Assembly (NCBI GenBank): GCA_019694795.1
Contig: JAIBBF010000013.1
Coordinates: 1 to 64,000 of the forward strand
Length of the DNA stretch: 64,000 nt
Direction: 5' to 3'
From: Flavobacteriales bacterium
Lineage (GTDB): Bacteria; Bacteroidota; Bacteroidia; Flavobacteriales_D; UBA2798
Below the pieces are notes generated by a model that was not told the origin of the DNA, made no database searches, and was given only the letters and a program-made list of their open reading frames with translations. Position 1 is the stretch's first letter. Every line of letters begins with the position of its first letter. Shown one piece after another: positions 10,247 to 28,124 of this stretch. A program made the position numbers and the translations under genes.

Positions 10247-11464
10247 TTAGCCGATTTTTAAAATATTTTTCCGGTAAAATGGGATTGAAATCAGGATCAT
10301 CATCAACCCTATGAAAAACAGCACCATTAAACGGAAACCTAATAATGACCAGGAGAATTCGCGCCAAAATATATCGTAATACGCCTGCACGCCCCAATAA
10401 TTGACCGAAAACATGGAAAGTTTTTGCATGAACTCCGGCATAAAGAAGGTAGGCATCATGGATCCACCAATGGCGCTCATCACCAATACAACAATGGTGG
10501 AAAGTCCCTCAACTTGTTTCCGGCTAGTGCAAACACTCGCAATGAGCATTCCAAATGAGGCACAAGAGAAGGCCGCCAGGAAGGTGGTTAGAATTAATGC
10601 AGGCAGGTGAATTAGGATGGGCAGACCGAAAACCATCCAGGCAAAGAGCATCATGACCATTAATTGTAAAAATCCAATGAGCGTGGCCGAAAGCATTTTT
10701 CCCAATAGGAGATCGAGCGGATTGATTGGTGAAATTAATAAGCGTCGCAAGGTTCCTTTTTCTTTTTCATCGAGCAATCCTGCACCCATTGCAGCCACCG
10801 AAAAAAGGAGGGTCATTATGGCCGTTCCTGCTACAGCCTGGACCAGGGCAGGATTGGTATTATCGGGAGAAGAAAGTGATTCTTCTGCAATCATTCCTTC
10901 TACAGGTGAGTCATTATCTGAAGATGAATTCATCATGTCATCCACGTTCTGTGTGACCATCGCCAATGAAGCTGAATCTTCGATTTGAAATTCTTCCTTC
11001 ATTTTCTTCGCCAGTTTTGCTTTGATGGAAAACTTTCCTGCCACTCTGAAAATTTTAGCACTGATTAATCCTTTTAACATGGAAGCTTCTGCTGCTTTTG
11101 CCTGATCAAAGACAAAAACAAATCCACTTTCACCCTTTTCCATTCGCGATTCGTAAGCAGGAAGAATAATCAATCCACCGGTACGATCCCCTTTTTGAAT
11201 AATCGAACGTAATTTTTTTTCGTCTACCTCTTGCACTTTAAGCGCAGGGAGGGAATCGAGTTCTGCAATGAGTTGTTTGCTTTCCGGTGTTTGCGCATTG
11301 TCGGCAACGAGTACATCCAGTTCGATATCATTGTTATTTCCCCCGTTTCCACCAAATGCAAAAACAAAAAGGGTGATGAGTCCCACCGGCATTAAAAAGG
11401 TAAGCAGGACCGCTTTCTTATCGGAGAAAAACAAACGCAGATCTTTTAAAGTAATTCGAATCAT
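10247..11464 (-). CDS. ABC-2 type transporter permease
   Basis: 405 residues from the ATG at 11464, which overlaps the ATPase stop as ATGA. One N-terminal membrane segment (KAVLLTFLMPVGLITLFVFAF) precedes a ~200-residue extracytoplasmic domain. Five or so C-terminal membrane helices include the ABC-2 signature region with EKEKGTLRRLLISPINPLDLLLGKML. This is the DrrB/YhaP-type layout used for export of small hydrophobic molecules or for cell-envelope functions. It forms the transporter with the ATPase encoded just upstream; substrate unknown. The ORF can be extended upstream but only by running into the ATPase gene. Confidence 0.9.
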   Translation of the reverse strand: MIRITLKDLRLFFSDKKAVLLTFLMPVGLITLFVFAFGGNGGNNNDIELDVLVADNAQTPESKQLIAELDSLPALKVQEVDEKKLRSIIQKGDRTGGLIILPAYESRMEKGESGFVFVFDQAKAAEASMLKGLISAKIFRVAGKFSIKAKLAKKMKEEFQIEDSASLAMVTQNVDDMMNSSSDNDSPVEGMIAEESLSSPDNTNPALVQAVAGTAIMTLLFSVAAMGAGLLDEKEKGTLRRLLISPINPLDLLLGKMLSATLIGFLQLMVMMLFAWMVFGLPILIHLPALILTTFLAAFSCASFGMLIASVCTSRKQVEGLSTIVVLVMSAIGGSMMPTFFMPEFMQKLSMFSVNYWGVQAYYDIFWREFSWSLLGFRLMVLFFIGLMMILISIPFYRKNILKIG

Positions 11465-12390
11465 CAGTCGCGCAATTTGTTTCCGGTTAATGATAAAAAA
11501 ACTGATTCCAAATTGGAATAACGTACATCTATGGTTCGAATAACAATTCCTTTTTCGAAACAAAAATTCATGATTGCAGGAAGCGATGAACGTAAATCTT
11601 TACACGTAAAGTGCAAGGCATCGGAAGTTCCTTTTACCTGTATGTGTTCGTTCAGCTGAAATTCCTGATGTTCAAATGAGGAAATGGTTTCACTGTGGAC
11701 AATGATTTCTTCCTGCACATCGCCCATGGAAATTAATTCACGAAGGGTGCCCTCTGCAATAATTTTCCCTTTATCGATGATTCCAATCCGATCGGAAAAT
11801 TTTTCTGCCTCTTCCATATAGTGGGTGGTATAGAGGATGGTTTTCCCTTCGTTTTTTAATCGGCTGATTGCTTCATAAATGTTATTTCTGCTCTGCGGAT
11901 CAATGCCCACTGTTGGCTCATCCATAAAAAGCAGTTTCGGATCGTGCAATAAAGCGGCGGCAATATTGATGCGGCGTTTCATTCCACCCGAATAAGTTCT
12001 GATTTTATCATGCGCCCGGTCCGATAATCCGAAATCACCCAGAAGGGTGTTGACACGAATCCGAAGATCATTTTTCCCCATGGGATAAAGTGAACCGAAA
12101 AACATCAGGTTATCGAAGGCCGATAAATCTTCATATAGGGCAATCTCCTGTGGAACCACCCCAATCATTTTACGAATGGATAAGGGTTCTTTTACCACAT
12201 CGATACCATCAATTAAAACAGTTCCCGAACTGGGTTTTAACAAGGTAGATAAAATAGAAAGCGTGGTTGATTTTCCGGCGCCGTTGGGTCCGAGCAAACT
12301 GTAAAACTCACCCCGTTCCACTTTGAATGAAATGGACTGGACGGCAGTTTTATCTCCGTACACTTTATGTAAATCGCGAACCTCAAGCAT
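11464..12390 (-). CDS. ABC transporter ATP-binding protein (DrrA/CcmA type)
   Basis: 308 residues. Walker A GPNGAGKST (34-42), Q-loop VVPQEIALYEDL, ABC signature YSGGMKRR (133-140), Walker B LLFMDEPT (153-160) and switch His in YTTHYMEEAE. The C-terminal ~80 residues follow the DrrA-type extension. It is the first gene of an operon with its permease (ATGA overlap) and the MerR-B12 regulator. Just upstream of the ATG, the minus strand reads GTAAATTGCGCC, a near match to the -7 box; if used, the leader would be very short. The 158 bases upstream hold no gene. Confidence 0.93.
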   Translation of the reverse strand: MLEVRDLHKVYGDKTAVQSISFKVERGEFYSLLGPNGAGKSTTLSILSTLLKPSSGTVLIDGIDVVKEPLSIRKMIGVVPQEIALYEDLSAFDNLMFFGSLYPMGKNDLRIRVNTLLGDFGLSDRAHDKIRTYSGGMKRRINIAAALLHDPKLLFMDEPTVGIDPQSRNNIYEAISRLKNEGKTILYTTHYMEEAEKFSDRIGIIDKGKIIAEGTLRELISMGDVQEEIIVHSETISSFEHQEFQLNEHIQVKGTSDALHFTCKDLRSSLPAIMNFCFEKGIVIRTIDVRYSNLESVFLSLTGNKLRD

Positions 12391-12548
12391 GGGGGCGCAA
12401 TTTACAAAAGGAGACTTAGCGAACGATGATTTTGGAAATAAAAAGACCCTGCTTTATTAAAAAGAGAAAACATTGTGTTCTAAGTGTGGAATTTGCATTA
12501 CAGTGAGAATGCAAAAAAATTGGAGAAAAAGGCTGTGAAGCTAAATGA

Positions 12549-22210: not shown

Positions 22211-23509
22211 TCAGAACGGTTTAATGAATCCGTAATCCATATAGCGGATTTGTGGTGCGCAATAAGCTCCGTTCCCTTTATAGGGTTTAAAAACGGTAAT
22301 GTATTGCCACATCCAATAATTGCATCCGGGTTTTTCATAGATGGCAACTCCACCTTTAGCCTGTTCGGTGATGTAACCGTAATCGTCTTTATAAACCTGA
22401 AAGGATTGAACGTTATAAAAGCATTTCAAAATTTTCAGACTAACTCCCGATTCAATTTGTTTATTAAAGGTGGCATCGGCATATGGATAATCTGATTTCA
22501 CCCAACCATTATTTTCTGCCTCCGCGGTTAATTTTTCTTTACGCTTTGCGAATGCCTCATCAAATCCTTTTAAGAGTAATTCGGAATTGCCTTTTACTCC
22601 AAAGGATGCGTATGCTTTTTCGATATTTGCCACGAGGTATGGTTTAATTTCGTCGATACTACCGCACATTACAAAATCTTCAGCTCGTTTTCCATTCGCT
22701 AATGCGAATTGCTGATCGGTGTTTGAATTGGTGAGGTCGATGAAATAGCTATCCAGATTAAACCATCGCTTGGCGCGTTCAGAAATTACACCACCAACCA
22801 ATACAGCGAAAACACTGTCGCTTTTTGAAGATACCAATCCAACAACCGAAGGATTGTATCTGAAATTTTTATTGATGGTAGAGGGTAGAGGAGCGAATTT
22901 TTTAACGACCTCTTTTAAATCTGCATAATCTTTTTTTGCCTGCTCAATATAATCGAGCGGAACGGAGTAATAAAGTTTACCGGAAGGATTACACTGATCG
23001 CAAATTAAGCGTGCCAAATCATCAATAGTGTTATTTGGACGCCTGCATACTTTTTCTACTTCGGTATAAAATTCCTTATAGGGCCATGGTTCCAATAACC
23101 ATTTATCTTCTATGCCTTGGCGACCCTGTTGCTGATGCATGGGATCTGAAATTTCAACCAGACACATTCCATTTTTATAACCGGTTACAGTACCTTCCGG
23201 AAATCCCTGCGCAAGATAAACGACTTTATCGCCTGCCTTGTATTTTGTAGCAGCGGTAGTGGAAGAGTTACCCGAATTTTGAACAGATCCCATTGCGCGG
23301 ACCTCTTCTTTTTTCGCCCAGGAATCATAAGCGGCAGAGTAACCATCCCAATGCACAAAATAGCGTTCGCCATCAACTTTTAGCACGGTGGCTTTATACC
23401 ATTTCCCCTGGTATAAAACTTCTACCCGATCATTCACCTGAAAGGTGCTCTGGGCCCACAGCATGCTACTGAGCATTACTGCAGTTATCAATAAAATAAA
23501 TTTTTTCAT
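22211..23509 (-). CDS. Secreted protein with N-terminal Tudor-knot/chromo-barrel-like domain
   Basis: 432 residues with signal peptide MKKFILLITAVMLSSMLWAQ. Residues 25-71 (VNDRVEVLYQGKWYKATVL, then FVHWDGYSAAYDSWAKKEEV) match the Tudor-knot/Agenet pattern: a binding barrel with WYKA, VHWDG and YDSW at conserved spacing. A second similar barrel may occupy 90-140 (YKAGDKVVYLAQGFPEGTVTGY). The C-terminal ~290 residues are unknown, ending with a Tyr-rich region. Such domains are best known from eukaryotic chromatin proteins, but related barrels also occur in bacterial secreted proteins. Second gene of a four-gene secreted-protein operon. Confidence 0.78.
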   Translation of the reverse strand: MKKFILLITAVMLSSMLWAQSTFQVNDRVEVLYQGKWYKATVLKVDGERYFVHWDGYSAAYDSWAKKEEVRAMGSVQNSGNSSTTAATKYKAGDKVVYLAQGFPEGTVTGYKNGMCLVEISDPMHQQQGRQGIEDKWLLEPWPYKEFYTEVEKVCRRPNNTIDDLARLICDQCNPSGKLYYSVPLDYIEQAKKDYADLKEVVKKFAPLPSTINKNFRYNPSVVGLVSSKSDSVFAVLVGGVISERAKRWFNLDSYFIDLTNSNTDQQFALANGKRAEDFVMCGSIDEIKPYLVANIEKAYASFGVKGNSELLLKGFDEAFAKRKEKLTAEAENNGWVKSDYPYADATFNKQIESGVSLKILKCFYNVQSFQVYKDDYGYITEQAKGGVAIYEKPGCNYWMWQYITVFKPYKGNGAYCAPQIRYMDYGFIKPF

Positions 23510-24129: not shown

Positions 24130-24348
24130 ATGAAGCGTTTCAACACCCTTATTACATTATTTCTTATCGTATGTACCTCAAAGCTGTTTGCACAATCGGA
24201 GAAGGAGCTACAAAAAATCAGTGAATACGATAGTATCGCCTTTCATTTTGAAAACATTCCGAATTATGATTCGGCCATTGTCTATTACAAAAAGGAACTT
24301 GAGATTTATAAGCAAAAAACGATAAGGAAATTGGTCGCACTTATTTAA
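24130..24348 (+). CDS. Fragment 1 of split kinase: signal peptide and first TPR
   Basis: 72 residues: signal peptide then SEKELQKISEYDSIAFHFEN and a first TPR helix pair (PNYDSAIVYYKKELEIYKQK). After the A6 run at 24314 this frame adds only ten unrelated residues (ending LVALI) and stops. The true continuation lies in the -1 frame. Confidence 0.6.
   Translation: MKRFNTLITLFLIVCTSKLFAQSEKELQKISEYDSIAFHFENIPNYDSAIVYYKKELEIYKQKTIRKLVALI
24314..24320 (+). other. First A6C frameshift site in the split kinase
   Basis: AAAAAAC in the frame CAA AAA ACG. Reading AAC as the next codon after AAA (-1) gives K-N-D-K-E-I-G-R and restores the TPR pattern. A run of seven A would do the same without a shift. 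Confidence 0.75.
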
Positions 24349-24359
24349 AAATTGGACGC

Positions 24360-25622
24360 ATGCTTTCTGAAAAAGGAGAGATTGCAGAAGCTTCGGATGT
24401 TTTTTTTAAAGTTTTAACCTATGCGGAAAAATCAAACGATACCATTCGCATTGCTATTGCACATACGCGAATTGGACGATGTTATGAATTTTTAGAACAG
24501 CCTGACAAAGCCATTGAGCAATACAGAAAAGGTTTAGAGATCTCCGAAAAATTTTCGATCCATAAACAAATGATTGCGCTTTACGGAACATTAGGAAATA
24601 TGTATCTGCAGCAAGGCAAAACCGATGAATGTAAAACATTGGTTTTACGCGCCGATTCAGTGGCAAAAATTCTGAATAATCCTTATTTCACTTATGGCTC
24701 GAATAATTTAGCGGGACTATATTACCTGGCCATTGAAGATTATTTACAAGCGGAAAAATACATGAAGTTAGCACTGGATTATAATCTGGAGAAAAATCCA
24801 AATACCAGTCACACCGCAGGAACCTATTTTAATCTGGGCGATATCTATGCACGACAGAAAAAAACGAGTCAGGCCATCAGCAGTTATGAAAAAGCCTACG
24901 CCATTTTTAGTCAGCAAAACGAGAAAAAGAACATGATGGATCTCGCCAATAATTTATCGGAGTTGTATGCTACTATTGGTGACTATAAAAAAGCTTATGA
25001 ATTCCGTAAAATGTATGATGCTTATTCCGACTCCATCATAAATATTGAATCGCAGATGGCCATAGCCGAATTGCAGACAAAATATGATGTAGAGAAAAAA
25101 GATGCACAATTAAAATTACTGGACAAGGAAAACAAATTGATTGCGCAAGAGAAAAAACTCAAAGAACAGAAAGCAAATGAAGCCGAAAGGAATTTTTATT
25201 ACACTTTAGGAATTTCGATTTTGCTTCTTATCACGATTATCATTGTTATTTGGTTTTTTATTTCACGGCAAAAAATAAACAAGAAATTAAGCGAGCAAGA
25301 GATTCGTATTACACGCCTGCAAACACAAATGAATCCGCATTTAATTTTTAATGCATTGGTATCTATCCAGGAAATGATTTTAGCCGGCGATAAAATGAAA
25401 TCAGTGGATTCGGTATCAAAATTTTCGAAGTTGATGCGCAGCACCTTAAATCATTCAGATAAAGAATTTATTTCGCTCGATCAGGAAAAGGAATTTTTGG
25501 AAACCTACGCCTCCTTCGAAAACGACCGGAATCAGGGCTCCATTCAATTTACCATCTCTATAGAAGGGGCTTTGGAAAAAACGGTGCAATGGTCCCTCCT
25601 TTACTTGTTCAACCCTTGGTAG
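24360..25622 (+). CDS. Fragment 2 of split kinase: TPRs, membrane helix, phosphoacceptor domain
   Basis: 420 residues from the first ATG in this frame, although the frame is open back to 24318. TPRs fill the first ~220 residues, then a Lys/Glu-rich coiled coil, a membrane helix (~275-297) and the His_kinase core with the phosphoacceptor His in QMNPHLIFNALVSIQ. It breaks after SIEGALEK and ends in an unrelated tail (TVQWSLLYLFNPW). Alone it would lack the ATP-binding domain. Confidence 0.65.
   Translation: MLSEKGEIAEASDVFFKVLTYAEKSNDTIRIAIAHTRIGRCYEFLEQPDKAIEQYRKGLEISEKFSIHKQMIALYGTLGNMYLQQGKTDECKTLVLRADSVAKILNNPYFTYGSNNLAGLYYLAIEDYLQAEKYMKLALDYNLEKNPNTSHTAGTYFNLGDIYARQKKTSQAISSYEKAYAIFSQQNEKKNMMDLANNLSELYATIGDYKKAYEFRKMYDAYSDSIINIESQMAIAELQTKYDVEKKDAQLKLLDKENKLIAQEKKLKEQKANEAERNFYYTLGISILLLITIIIVIWFFISRQKINKKLSEQEIRITRLQTQMNPHLIFNALVSIQEMILAGDKMKSVDSVSKFSKLMRSTLNHSDKEFISLDQEKEFLETYASFENDRNQGSIQFTISIEGALEKTVQWSLLYLFNPW
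25576..25582 (+). other. Second A6C frameshift site in the split kinase
   Basis: AAAAAAC in the frame GAA AAA ACG, the same arrangement as the first site. A -1 shift, or one extra A, gives K-N-G-A-M-V-P-P and joins the ATPase domain. Confidence 0.75.
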
Positions 25623-25909
25623 AAAATGCATATAAGCATGCCTTTAAAACTAGTATAGGGTATCCCTCCATATTAGTCGAAATGAAAAAAAATAATGAAG
25701 AGAAGTCCCTAGAGATTCATGTTTCTGATAATGGTTCCGGAATGAATGCAACCGCTTCGTCAGAATCCAAAGCATTAACGATTTTAAAAAACAGATTGAC
25801 CATGATCTGGAGTAAATCGAAACAAAAAATAAATAAAGAATATTTTGAGGTCCGTAACTCCAATCCCGGAATCCACATTTTAATCCGTTTACCTTTTATT
25901 GAAGAATAA
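25589..25909 (+). CDS. Fragment 3 of split kinase: HATPase domain
   Basis: 106 residues from an internal ATG at 25589; the frame is open back to the AAC at 25580. It contains the N-box LVQPLVENAYKHAF and G1-like SDNGSGMN, then LKNRLTMIW. This is the ATP-binding half of a LytS-type kinase and would not work alone. It ends two bases before the regulator ATG. Confidence 0.65.
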   Translation: MVPPLLVQPLVENAYKHAFKTSIGYPSILVEMKKNNEEKSLEIHVSDNGSGMNATASSESKALTILKNRLTMIWSKSKQKINKEYFEVRNSNPGIHILIRLPFIEE

Positions 25910-25911
25910 GT

Positions 25912-26658
25912 ATGATACAGGCCATTATTGTTGATGATGAATCGTCGTGCAGAAACGTATTATCTGCTTTATTGCAAAGCATCGCTCCACAAGTTAAAAT
26001 TATAGGAACTGCTCAAAACGTAAATGAAGCTGTAATTCTAATTGATGAATTGAAACCTGAGTTGGTTATTCTTGATGTTGAACTTGGCGATGAATTGAGT
26101 TTTAAAATTTTCGAAAAAGTAAGTTATCGTCAGTTTTACTCCATCATCACCAGTGCGCATGAAAAATATGCCATTCGCGCATTTAAAGCCAGTTGTCTGG
26201 AATATCTCCTCAAACCGGTCGACAGTACAGAATTAGCACAAGCCATTGTAAAGTTTGAACGTCAGCGGCAAATCACGTTTAATCAAAAGAAAATCGAATT
26301 GTTGCTGGAGAATATCGGTTCGGCGGGAAATGCGATTCAAAAAATTGCTATTCCTTGTCACGATGGTTATGCCTTCGTAAACGTTGCCGACATTATCTAT
26401 TGTGAAGCGGATGCCAAATACACTAAAATTTATACGAGAAATAACGAGCATATATTATCCTCTAAAAATCTTGGTGAATTTGAAGAACTGCTCGACTACA
26501 ATCCTTTTTTTCGTTGTCATAAATCCTACATCATCAACATCAACTTCGTAAAGAAATTTTTGAGGTCAGACTCCTTGGTAGAGATGAGTAATGGAACACG
26601 GATAGATGTTGCCACCCGTAAAAAAGACGATTTTCTGAAATTATTTGAGAAGCTTTAA
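25912..26658 (+). CDS. LytTR-family response regulator
   Basis: 248 residues. Receiver domain 1-~120 with acidic pocket DD (8-9), phosphoacceptor D55 in LVILDVELGD, and Lys in YLLKPVD. The C-terminal LytTR DNA-binding domain (~140-245) has IYCEADAKYTKIYT and FFRCHKSYIINI. It is the partner of the split kinase just upstream. The LytTR domain type binds direct repeats in promoters. Its stop overlaps the stop of the convergent lipoprotein gene. Confidence 0.93.
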   Translation: MIQAIIVDDESSCRNVLSALLQSIAPQVKIIGTAQNVNEAVILIDELKPELVILDVELGDELSFKIFEKVSYRQFYSIITSAHEKYAIRAFKASCLEYLLKPVDSTELAQAIVKFERQRQITFNQKKIELLLENIGSAGNAIQKIAIPCHDGYAFVNVADIIYCEADAKYTKIYTRNNEHILSSKNLGEFEELLDYNPFFRCHKSYIININFVKKFLRSDSLVEMSNGTRIDVATRKKDDFLKLFEKL

Positions 26659-28124
26659 TGTTCCTGAAGAATCGATAATAAATCGTCGGCACCTTTAAAG
26701 GGACGAATACTGGTCATTTCGAAACTCATGCTTACCGGACTTCTGTATTTCATTTGACGGAAATCGAGTTGCTTGTATTTTTTAGAACTAAACACGGCAA
26801 CATAATTCCCCGGCAACACAGCAAACAATTTTGCCCCCGGATCAGGAATTAATACGACATTATTCCATTTTTCATAAGGGAATTTCACCAAACTACGATT
26901 GGAAGAACTCACGTAACACACTTCCTGATTCTGCAAAATACCGGCATCGCGGTCGAATTTGAAATCGGCATGAACGGAAACGGCATTTTCATCATTCAGG
27001 AAACGATCGTAATTATAAATCCCAAATTGATTAATCTCCATTGTGCGGTAAACATCTGCCAATTCATTCATGCGTTTTTCATCCGCTTTAACTTTTGCCA
27101 ATGTTTCTTCATATTTACTTTTCCACTGAGAAGCAGAAAATGCGAATAAAGATTTAAGCGACATCACCGCTTCAATTTTGCCTTTGTAAAAATGTCCGGC
27201 TTTATCATCAATTACAATCTCATATACATTTCCATAAACCTGCGTCAGTACACTTTCCGCTTTGCCTGCCCAATCGGGAAATGGAACCCCCGTTAAATTT
27301 TTCCATACCAGCATAGAAGCCAGGTATTTTTTTCCTTCGAAAGTGATGCTTTGATAATTGTAAATATTACTCCAATTGAGACCATAATCTTTAATCCTGG
27401 ATTTTGTTCCCGCGTCGTTTCTGTTTTTATTGATTAGGGAATAATTATCATTCATCATCACATCCAGCGCCGCCATGTAATTGAACGAAAAATATTCGGG
27501 TCCCAATGGAATTTTTAAAGCAGAACCATATTTCTTTTTCTTTAGTTTTTCCTTCTCCGGGTTAGGAGCACCGCCCTCATCACCCATGTAATGCCAGTTT
27601 CTGGTCCCTTGTTCATCTAAATAGAAAAAATGATAATCATTGCCCCCAACCATCGATGCTAATTGAACTGAAATGGTTTTACCACTATCCACATAAACTG
27701 TATTCCCGTTTTGTTCTGCTCTGAGTTCAAACATCCCTGCGGTTTCAAATCGTTTTAAAATTCCGGCGGCATCATAGTCCATCGGAATCCCTGCACAATA
27801 CACCGAAGCGGCATCGTGAAATTCACGGTAGTGAAACGTAACTTTTCCTTTGATGGGTCTGCGCAAACTATCTACCAATACGTTGGCGGGGACAATTATT
27901 TTTGATCCCTTGCTGCCTTCAACAAACAACTCTGCGCCGGTCTCAGCTACCAGTTCCAACTTTTGCAATGGTGGATTAAATTCGGGAACAGGAGATTTTA
28001 CCAGTGGCGGCAAAACTGCAATGGAATCCTTTTTGGGGACTTCATTTTTTACCACTACCTCTTCTTGCGAGCAGGAAGCAATAAAAACAGAAAGCAATAC
28101 AATAGTTAACACGTTCCATTTCAT
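26655..28124 (-). CDS. Large lipoprotein with ZU5-like N-terminal region
   Basis: 489 residues. Lipobox IASC (C18) then SQEEVVV. Residues ~55-110 (ETGAELFVEGSKGSKIIVPANVL ... GKVTFHYREFHDAASVYCAGIPM) follow a ZU5-like pattern (Gly, then IxVPxxxL, then GxVTFxYREF). The last ~300 residues contain long beta-strand segments and a helical piece (KYEETLAKVKADEKRMNELADVYRTME). No catalytic motif. I do not recognise the protein as a whole. It is followed on the same strand by nothing nearby and is preceded by a transglycosylase-like gene at 28144-28836, 19 bases away. Confidence 0.7.
   Translation of the reverse strand: MKWNVLTIVLLSVFIASCSQEEVVVKNEVPKKDSIAVLPPLVKSPVPEFNPPLQKLELVAETGAELFVEGSKGSKIIVPANVLVDSLRRPIKGKVTFHYREFHDAASVYCAGIPMDYDAAGILKRFETAGMFELRAEQNGNTVYVDSGKTISVQLASMVGGNDYHFFYLDEQGTRNWHYMGDEGGAPNPEKEKLKKKKYGSALKIPLGPEYFSFNYMAALDVMMNDNYSLINKNRNDAGTKSRIKDYGLNWSNIYNYQSITFEGKKYLASMLVWKNLTGVPFPDWAGKAESVLTQVYGNVYEIVIDDKAGHFYKGKIEAVMSLKSLFAFSASQWKSKYEETLAKVKADEKRMNELADVYRTMEINQFGIYNYDRFLNDENAVSVHADFKFDRDAGILQNQEVCYVSSSNRSLVKFPYEKWNNVVLIPDPGAKLFAVLPGNYVAVFSSKKYKQLDFRQMKYRSPVSMSFEMTSIRPFKGADDLLSILQEH

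Follow-up and report, generated by a model that had tools for sequence, protein, structure and literature searches.

Three reading frames on the forward strand, at positions 24130–25909 of the window (the 64,000 nt stretch of contig JAIBBF010000013.1 that was analysed), hold one gene for a TPR/His_kinase sensor kinase of the LytS type. The frame is broken at two places, homology runs across the breaks, a relative of the kinase and the adjacent response regulator gene are intact, and breaks of this kind are rare elsewhere in the genome. The gene is probably a recent pseudogene of an ordinary TPR LytS-type kinase, fixed either in the species or in the MAG's dominant strain. An alternative form of the same reading is a lesion carried by a minority strain or by the consensus, with the response regulator still intact. 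A decaying gene had been one of several options listed in a first-pass annotation of this DNA. A gene broken recently is the version that fits best, given that this was the only frameshift found in about 520 kb of aligned sequence and that the kinase has an intact counterpart in another genome.

One sensor kinase gene spread over three frames

Read in order, the frames give a signal peptide, TPR repeats, a transmembrane segment, a His_kinase dimerisation domain (QMNPHLIFN) and an ATPase domain (LVENAYKHA, DNGSGM). The first piece (24130–24348, + strand) contains the signal peptide (MKRFNTLITLFLIVCTSKLFAQ, recognised by inspection) and the first TPR helix; its frame is lost past an A-run and closes at a TAA stop (24346–24348). 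The second piece (24312–25622, + strand; first ATG at 24360, TAG stop at 25620–25622) contains the TPR repeats, the transmembrane segment and the dimerisation/phosphoacceptor domain with QMNPHLIFN, and matched the Pfam families TPR_12 (1.1e-22) and His_kinase (1.2e-16). The third (25580–25909, + strand; internal ATG at 25589) is the HATPase_c region, which keeps LVENAYKHA and DNGSGM. Its Pfam match was partial (3.4e-05; 24.7 bits, below the 26.4 cut-off), and the intact kinase of locus L033, described below, likewise fell below the HATPase_c cut-off (21.9 bits).

The gene has the His_kinase domain with an NPH motif that is expected of a LytS-type (PF06580) kinase, as well as a neighbouring LytTR response regulator, while the HATPase_c N-box and DNGxG motifs, expected within the same polypeptide, sit in another frame. 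The regulator gene (25912–26658, + strand) begins 2 nt past the kinase stop and is intact (LytTR, 1.7e-20; Response_reg, 2e-13). TPR-containing LytS/His_kinase (PF06580) kinases of Bacteroidota with LytTR regulators show the same domain order and the same gene order; a literature search on TPR-LytTR kinases returned nothing useful.

The GC values of the kinase-regulator operon (24130–26658) are 35.7% and 36.7%, against 40.7% for the median gene, which places them near or below the 5th percentile; this A+T-rich operon was possibly acquired. It is followed by a convergent gene of unknown function (26655–28124, − strand), the stop of which overlaps that of the regulator by 4 nt. On the other side, the gene at 22211–23509 (− strand) codes for an exported protein with a weak N-terminal Agenet/Tudor-like match (8.4e-06, just under the cut-off), an odd feature for a bacterial exported protein.

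Position of the two breaks

Since the first frame closes at the TAA at 24346, and the middle frame opens no earlier than 24312, break 1 is confined to 24312–24346. For break 2 the stops set limits of 25463 (from which the last frame is open) and 25620 (the TAG that closes the middle frame), and homology tightens this interval to about 25565–25590. In a sliding coding log-odds analysis the frame switched at about 24310 and about 25570. At each break there is a run of six A followed by C: at 24314–24319 (+ strand) it is framed CAA AAA ACG, and at 25576–25581 (+ strand), immediately 5′ of the ATPase N-box, it is framed GAA AAA ACG. The first-pass annotation had placed the breaks at AAAAAAC framed xAA AAA ACG, which proved exact at both positions. 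It had also called for the same direction of correction at the two sites, and homology to the intact L033 kinase does resume in the new frame past each A-run. Its remark that the ATPase is left separate holds as well, the N-box lying just beyond break 2 and the ATPase motifs falling in a different frame from His_kinase.

Other homopolymers of the gene serve as internal controls. The T8 run at 24400–24407 and the A8 run at 25685–25692 (both + strand) need no frame correction. A seven-A run followed by C, annotated earlier as reading in frame, indeed does so, although its coordinates are 24858–24864 (+ strand) and not 24854–24860. Six-A runs occur in about 20–25% of the 36–45 nt intervals of this A-rich gene, so that finding one at both breaks amounts to a coincidence of about 5%, before any mutational preference for A-runs is considered. 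A-runs are hot spots for single-base losses. The identical framing is what one would expect if an A-rich gene had twice lost a single A, and is not a signature.

Apart from the two frame breaks, no nonsense codon or further lesion was found in the kinase gene. Relative to ordinary segments, the coding scores of the pieces fell at the 8th (first), 44th (second) and 2nd (third) percentiles. The low values of the first and third pieces hint weakly at drift; these are short segments, and composition could also explain the percentiles.

Homologues of the kinase

The closest relative found was the kinase of locus L033 (Bacteroidia MAG ES-bin-35, JACMLS010000799.1), which is a single open frame. The read-through kinase aligned with it over 564 columns (30% identity, E 1e-55), starting with KQKNDKE at break 1 and spanning break 2 to the C-terminus. 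Break 2 is flanked by separate matches that lie in different frames. At break 1, the match past the break picks up at NDKE, from 24318, while the upstream signal peptide and short helix are too short to match on their own. The L033 locus shows the same kinase-then-regulator order, and its regulator, also intact, is 46% identical to the LytTR regulator described here. Unlike the present gene, the L033 kinase has one open frame, and its DNA has no A6 run at either equivalent site. Among the matches listed across the order, the homologues were open frames without stops, mostly of 600 to more than 1,000 residues. The breaks were thus missing from the relatives, none of which was conspecific.

No orthologue of the kinase was found in the same genus or family. 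The nearest kinase match in the same-genus genome was only 25% identical, and the kinase-regulator system therefore looks accessory. Searches for close relatives gave nothing above 29–31% identity in genome_contigs, and none at all in viral_contigs.

Frameshifts in the rest of the genome

The proteins of the same-genus genome and of other relatives were compared by tblastn with about 1.26 Mb of the genome, sampled as stretches. About 521 kb were aligned in total, and the aligned stretches contained 1,362 A/T runs of at least six bases (among them 987 of six, 283 of seven and 86 of eight). Neighbouring matches in differing frames were seen at five places, one of them the kinase gene. The other four candidates, at three loci, were adjacent ordinary genes: L137 and L141 each hold a kinase-regulator pair, and L134 holds a gene pair. 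The kinase gene was therefore the only frameshift in the aligned portion, and no other tested A-run was broken. In the reverse search, the same-genus genome showed 16 frame jumps, almost all of them at or next to 2-N pads, which indicates that the tblastn detector is sensitive to single frame breaks. Many frame jumps of that genome (G001, L081–L120) coincide with 2-N pads within genes, an assembly trait of the record, and its proteins are split there. A coding-statistics HMM and an overlapping-frame scan were unreliable for breaks with short overlaps, and both missed the kinase gene; the top candidate for a frame break in the window (10249–12453, − strand) was an ABC ATPase-permease pair instead.

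These counts bear on the main rival explanation, namely that each A-run was recorded one base short through a local error of sequencing, assembly or strain-mixture consensus, the organism's gene being intact. At both sites the discrepancy is the same, one A missing from a homopolymer; the remainder of the gene is intact, and the record is a 124-contig draft, all of which would speak for an error. In the GeneTack analysis, moreover, singleton frameshifts validated by homologues were assigned to recent indels or to sequencing errors, and many were expected to be the latter (PMC3711429). Against this, no second frameshift was seen among the 1,362 runs, and the longer T8, A8 and A7 runs within the kinase gene are correct. 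Homopolymer indels are thus rare in this record, which makes two independent errors in one 1.8 kb gene unlikely. With the error rate at its upper 95% limit, the probability of two errors in the kinase gene is about 5e-5, a value that is not negligible over some 3,000 genes, and for this reason error remains the main rival. Under uniform error, two given lesions placed among about 285 A/T7-type runs would share a gene with a probability of about 1%. Assembly error, an option already raised in the first-pass annotation, is made less likely by a yield of one frameshifted gene in the aligned sequence, and we consider it to have perhaps a minor share of the probability. A search of the literature on homopolymer errors in MAGs returned nothing useful.

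Phase variation and slippage

A reversible on/off switch, with replication slippage adding or removing a seventh A, appears improbable. Homopolymer indels are reversible, the gene codes for a sensor, and two switch points would be expected to hold it mostly off. Two independent switches within one gene would be odd, however, and the sampled genes contain more than 1,300 other A6/A7 runs, so nothing marks these two sites as hypermutable. Phase-variable tracts are, in addition, normally longer than six or seven A.

Still a little less probable is productive slippage at both sites, transcriptional at A6 or by −1 ribosomal shifting on AAA, which would yield a little full-length kinase. The framing and direction of the two sites agree, and the frame overlaps are open on both sides. 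In 730 kb of ordinary genes, however, the string xAA AAA AC was counted 73 times in this frame; 24 of these are the exact codons [G/C]AA AAA ACG, and flanking homology shows that at least seven of the 24 are read without a shift. With a motif this common in frame, efficient slippage would harm those intact genes. The T8, A8 and A7 runs of the kinase gene would slip more, yet are untouched, and two successive shifts of low efficiency would multiply. Nor does the frame CAA/GAA AAA ACG correspond to a conserved in-frame X XXY YYZ heptamer: it is not canonical, since a single tRNA would be able to re-pair, and it is not conserved in L033. The RNA folds 3′ of the breaks were no better than those of shuffled sequences (z of 0.08 and 0.71; folding without pseudoknots), and so gave no sign of a stimulatory structure.

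As to run length, most descriptions of useful transcriptional slippage in bacteria concern runs of about nine; in some bacteria shorter ones may slip as well (PMC1088944). Insertions during transcription increase exponentially as runs lengthen, and E. coli and Buchnera yielded no case in which the frame was restored (PMC5574713). The 730 kb of coding sequence examined here contain 1,004 runs of six A, against four of A9. Over the sampled stretches (genome G000), coding A-runs fall steadily up to length eight (103) and drop sharply at nine (4), and T-runs go from 25 to 1, a pattern suggestive of selection against coding runs of at least nine. The genes Thermus dnaX (A9) and Shigella mxiE share with the kinase a frame change at a homopolymer; the kinase differs from them in having runs of only six, a motif common in frame elsewhere, unconserved sites and the need for two consecutive shifts. 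GeneTack requires, for programmed events, sites conserved in clusters of five or more (PMC3711429), whereas the kinase breaks are not conserved in several homologues. The slippage option of the first-pass annotation is thus contradicted by the same-frame motif in intact genes, by the longer untouched runs and by the unbroken homologues. Its most specific form, in which paired A6C sites throttle the sensor kinase so that most of the product is truncated and a trace is full-length, is the least credible of all.

A probable recent inactivation of the kinase

We therefore favour a pseudogene. The gene would once have encoded a membrane-anchored LytS-type sensor kinase with periplasmic TPRs, in an operon with its LytTR response regulator. 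The frame would then have been destroyed by two losses of one base, in the simplest case one from each A-run, leaving a loss-of-function allele. As written, the first piece would be a 72-residue export-signal stub, the second would lack both the export signal and the ATPase, and the third would lack the phosphoacceptor domain; with each piece missing essential parts, no functional kinase is expected. The breaks would accordingly lie in the organism's own DNA and abolish activity, and the retention of the catalytic motifs and of the regulator suggests that inactivation was recent. A second lesion in the same gene is expected under relaxed selection. The two lesions are alike in type, however, and no further one is present, a pattern that a local sequencing or consensus error would also fit. 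The kinase resembles the singleton frameshifted genes of GeneTack (PMC3711429), i.e. homopolymer frameshift pseudogenes, in having homology-validated breaks in one lineage, at A-runs and unconserved in relatives; it differs from them in having no nonsense codons or deletions yet.

Taken alone the finding is of little importance, one accessory sensor kinase being broken in a genome that still has its intact regulator. It does carry a caution: homopolymers in matching frames at a pair of breaks give the impression of programming, yet are to be expected in an A-rich gene, and the apparent signal vanishes once the motif is counted genome-wide.
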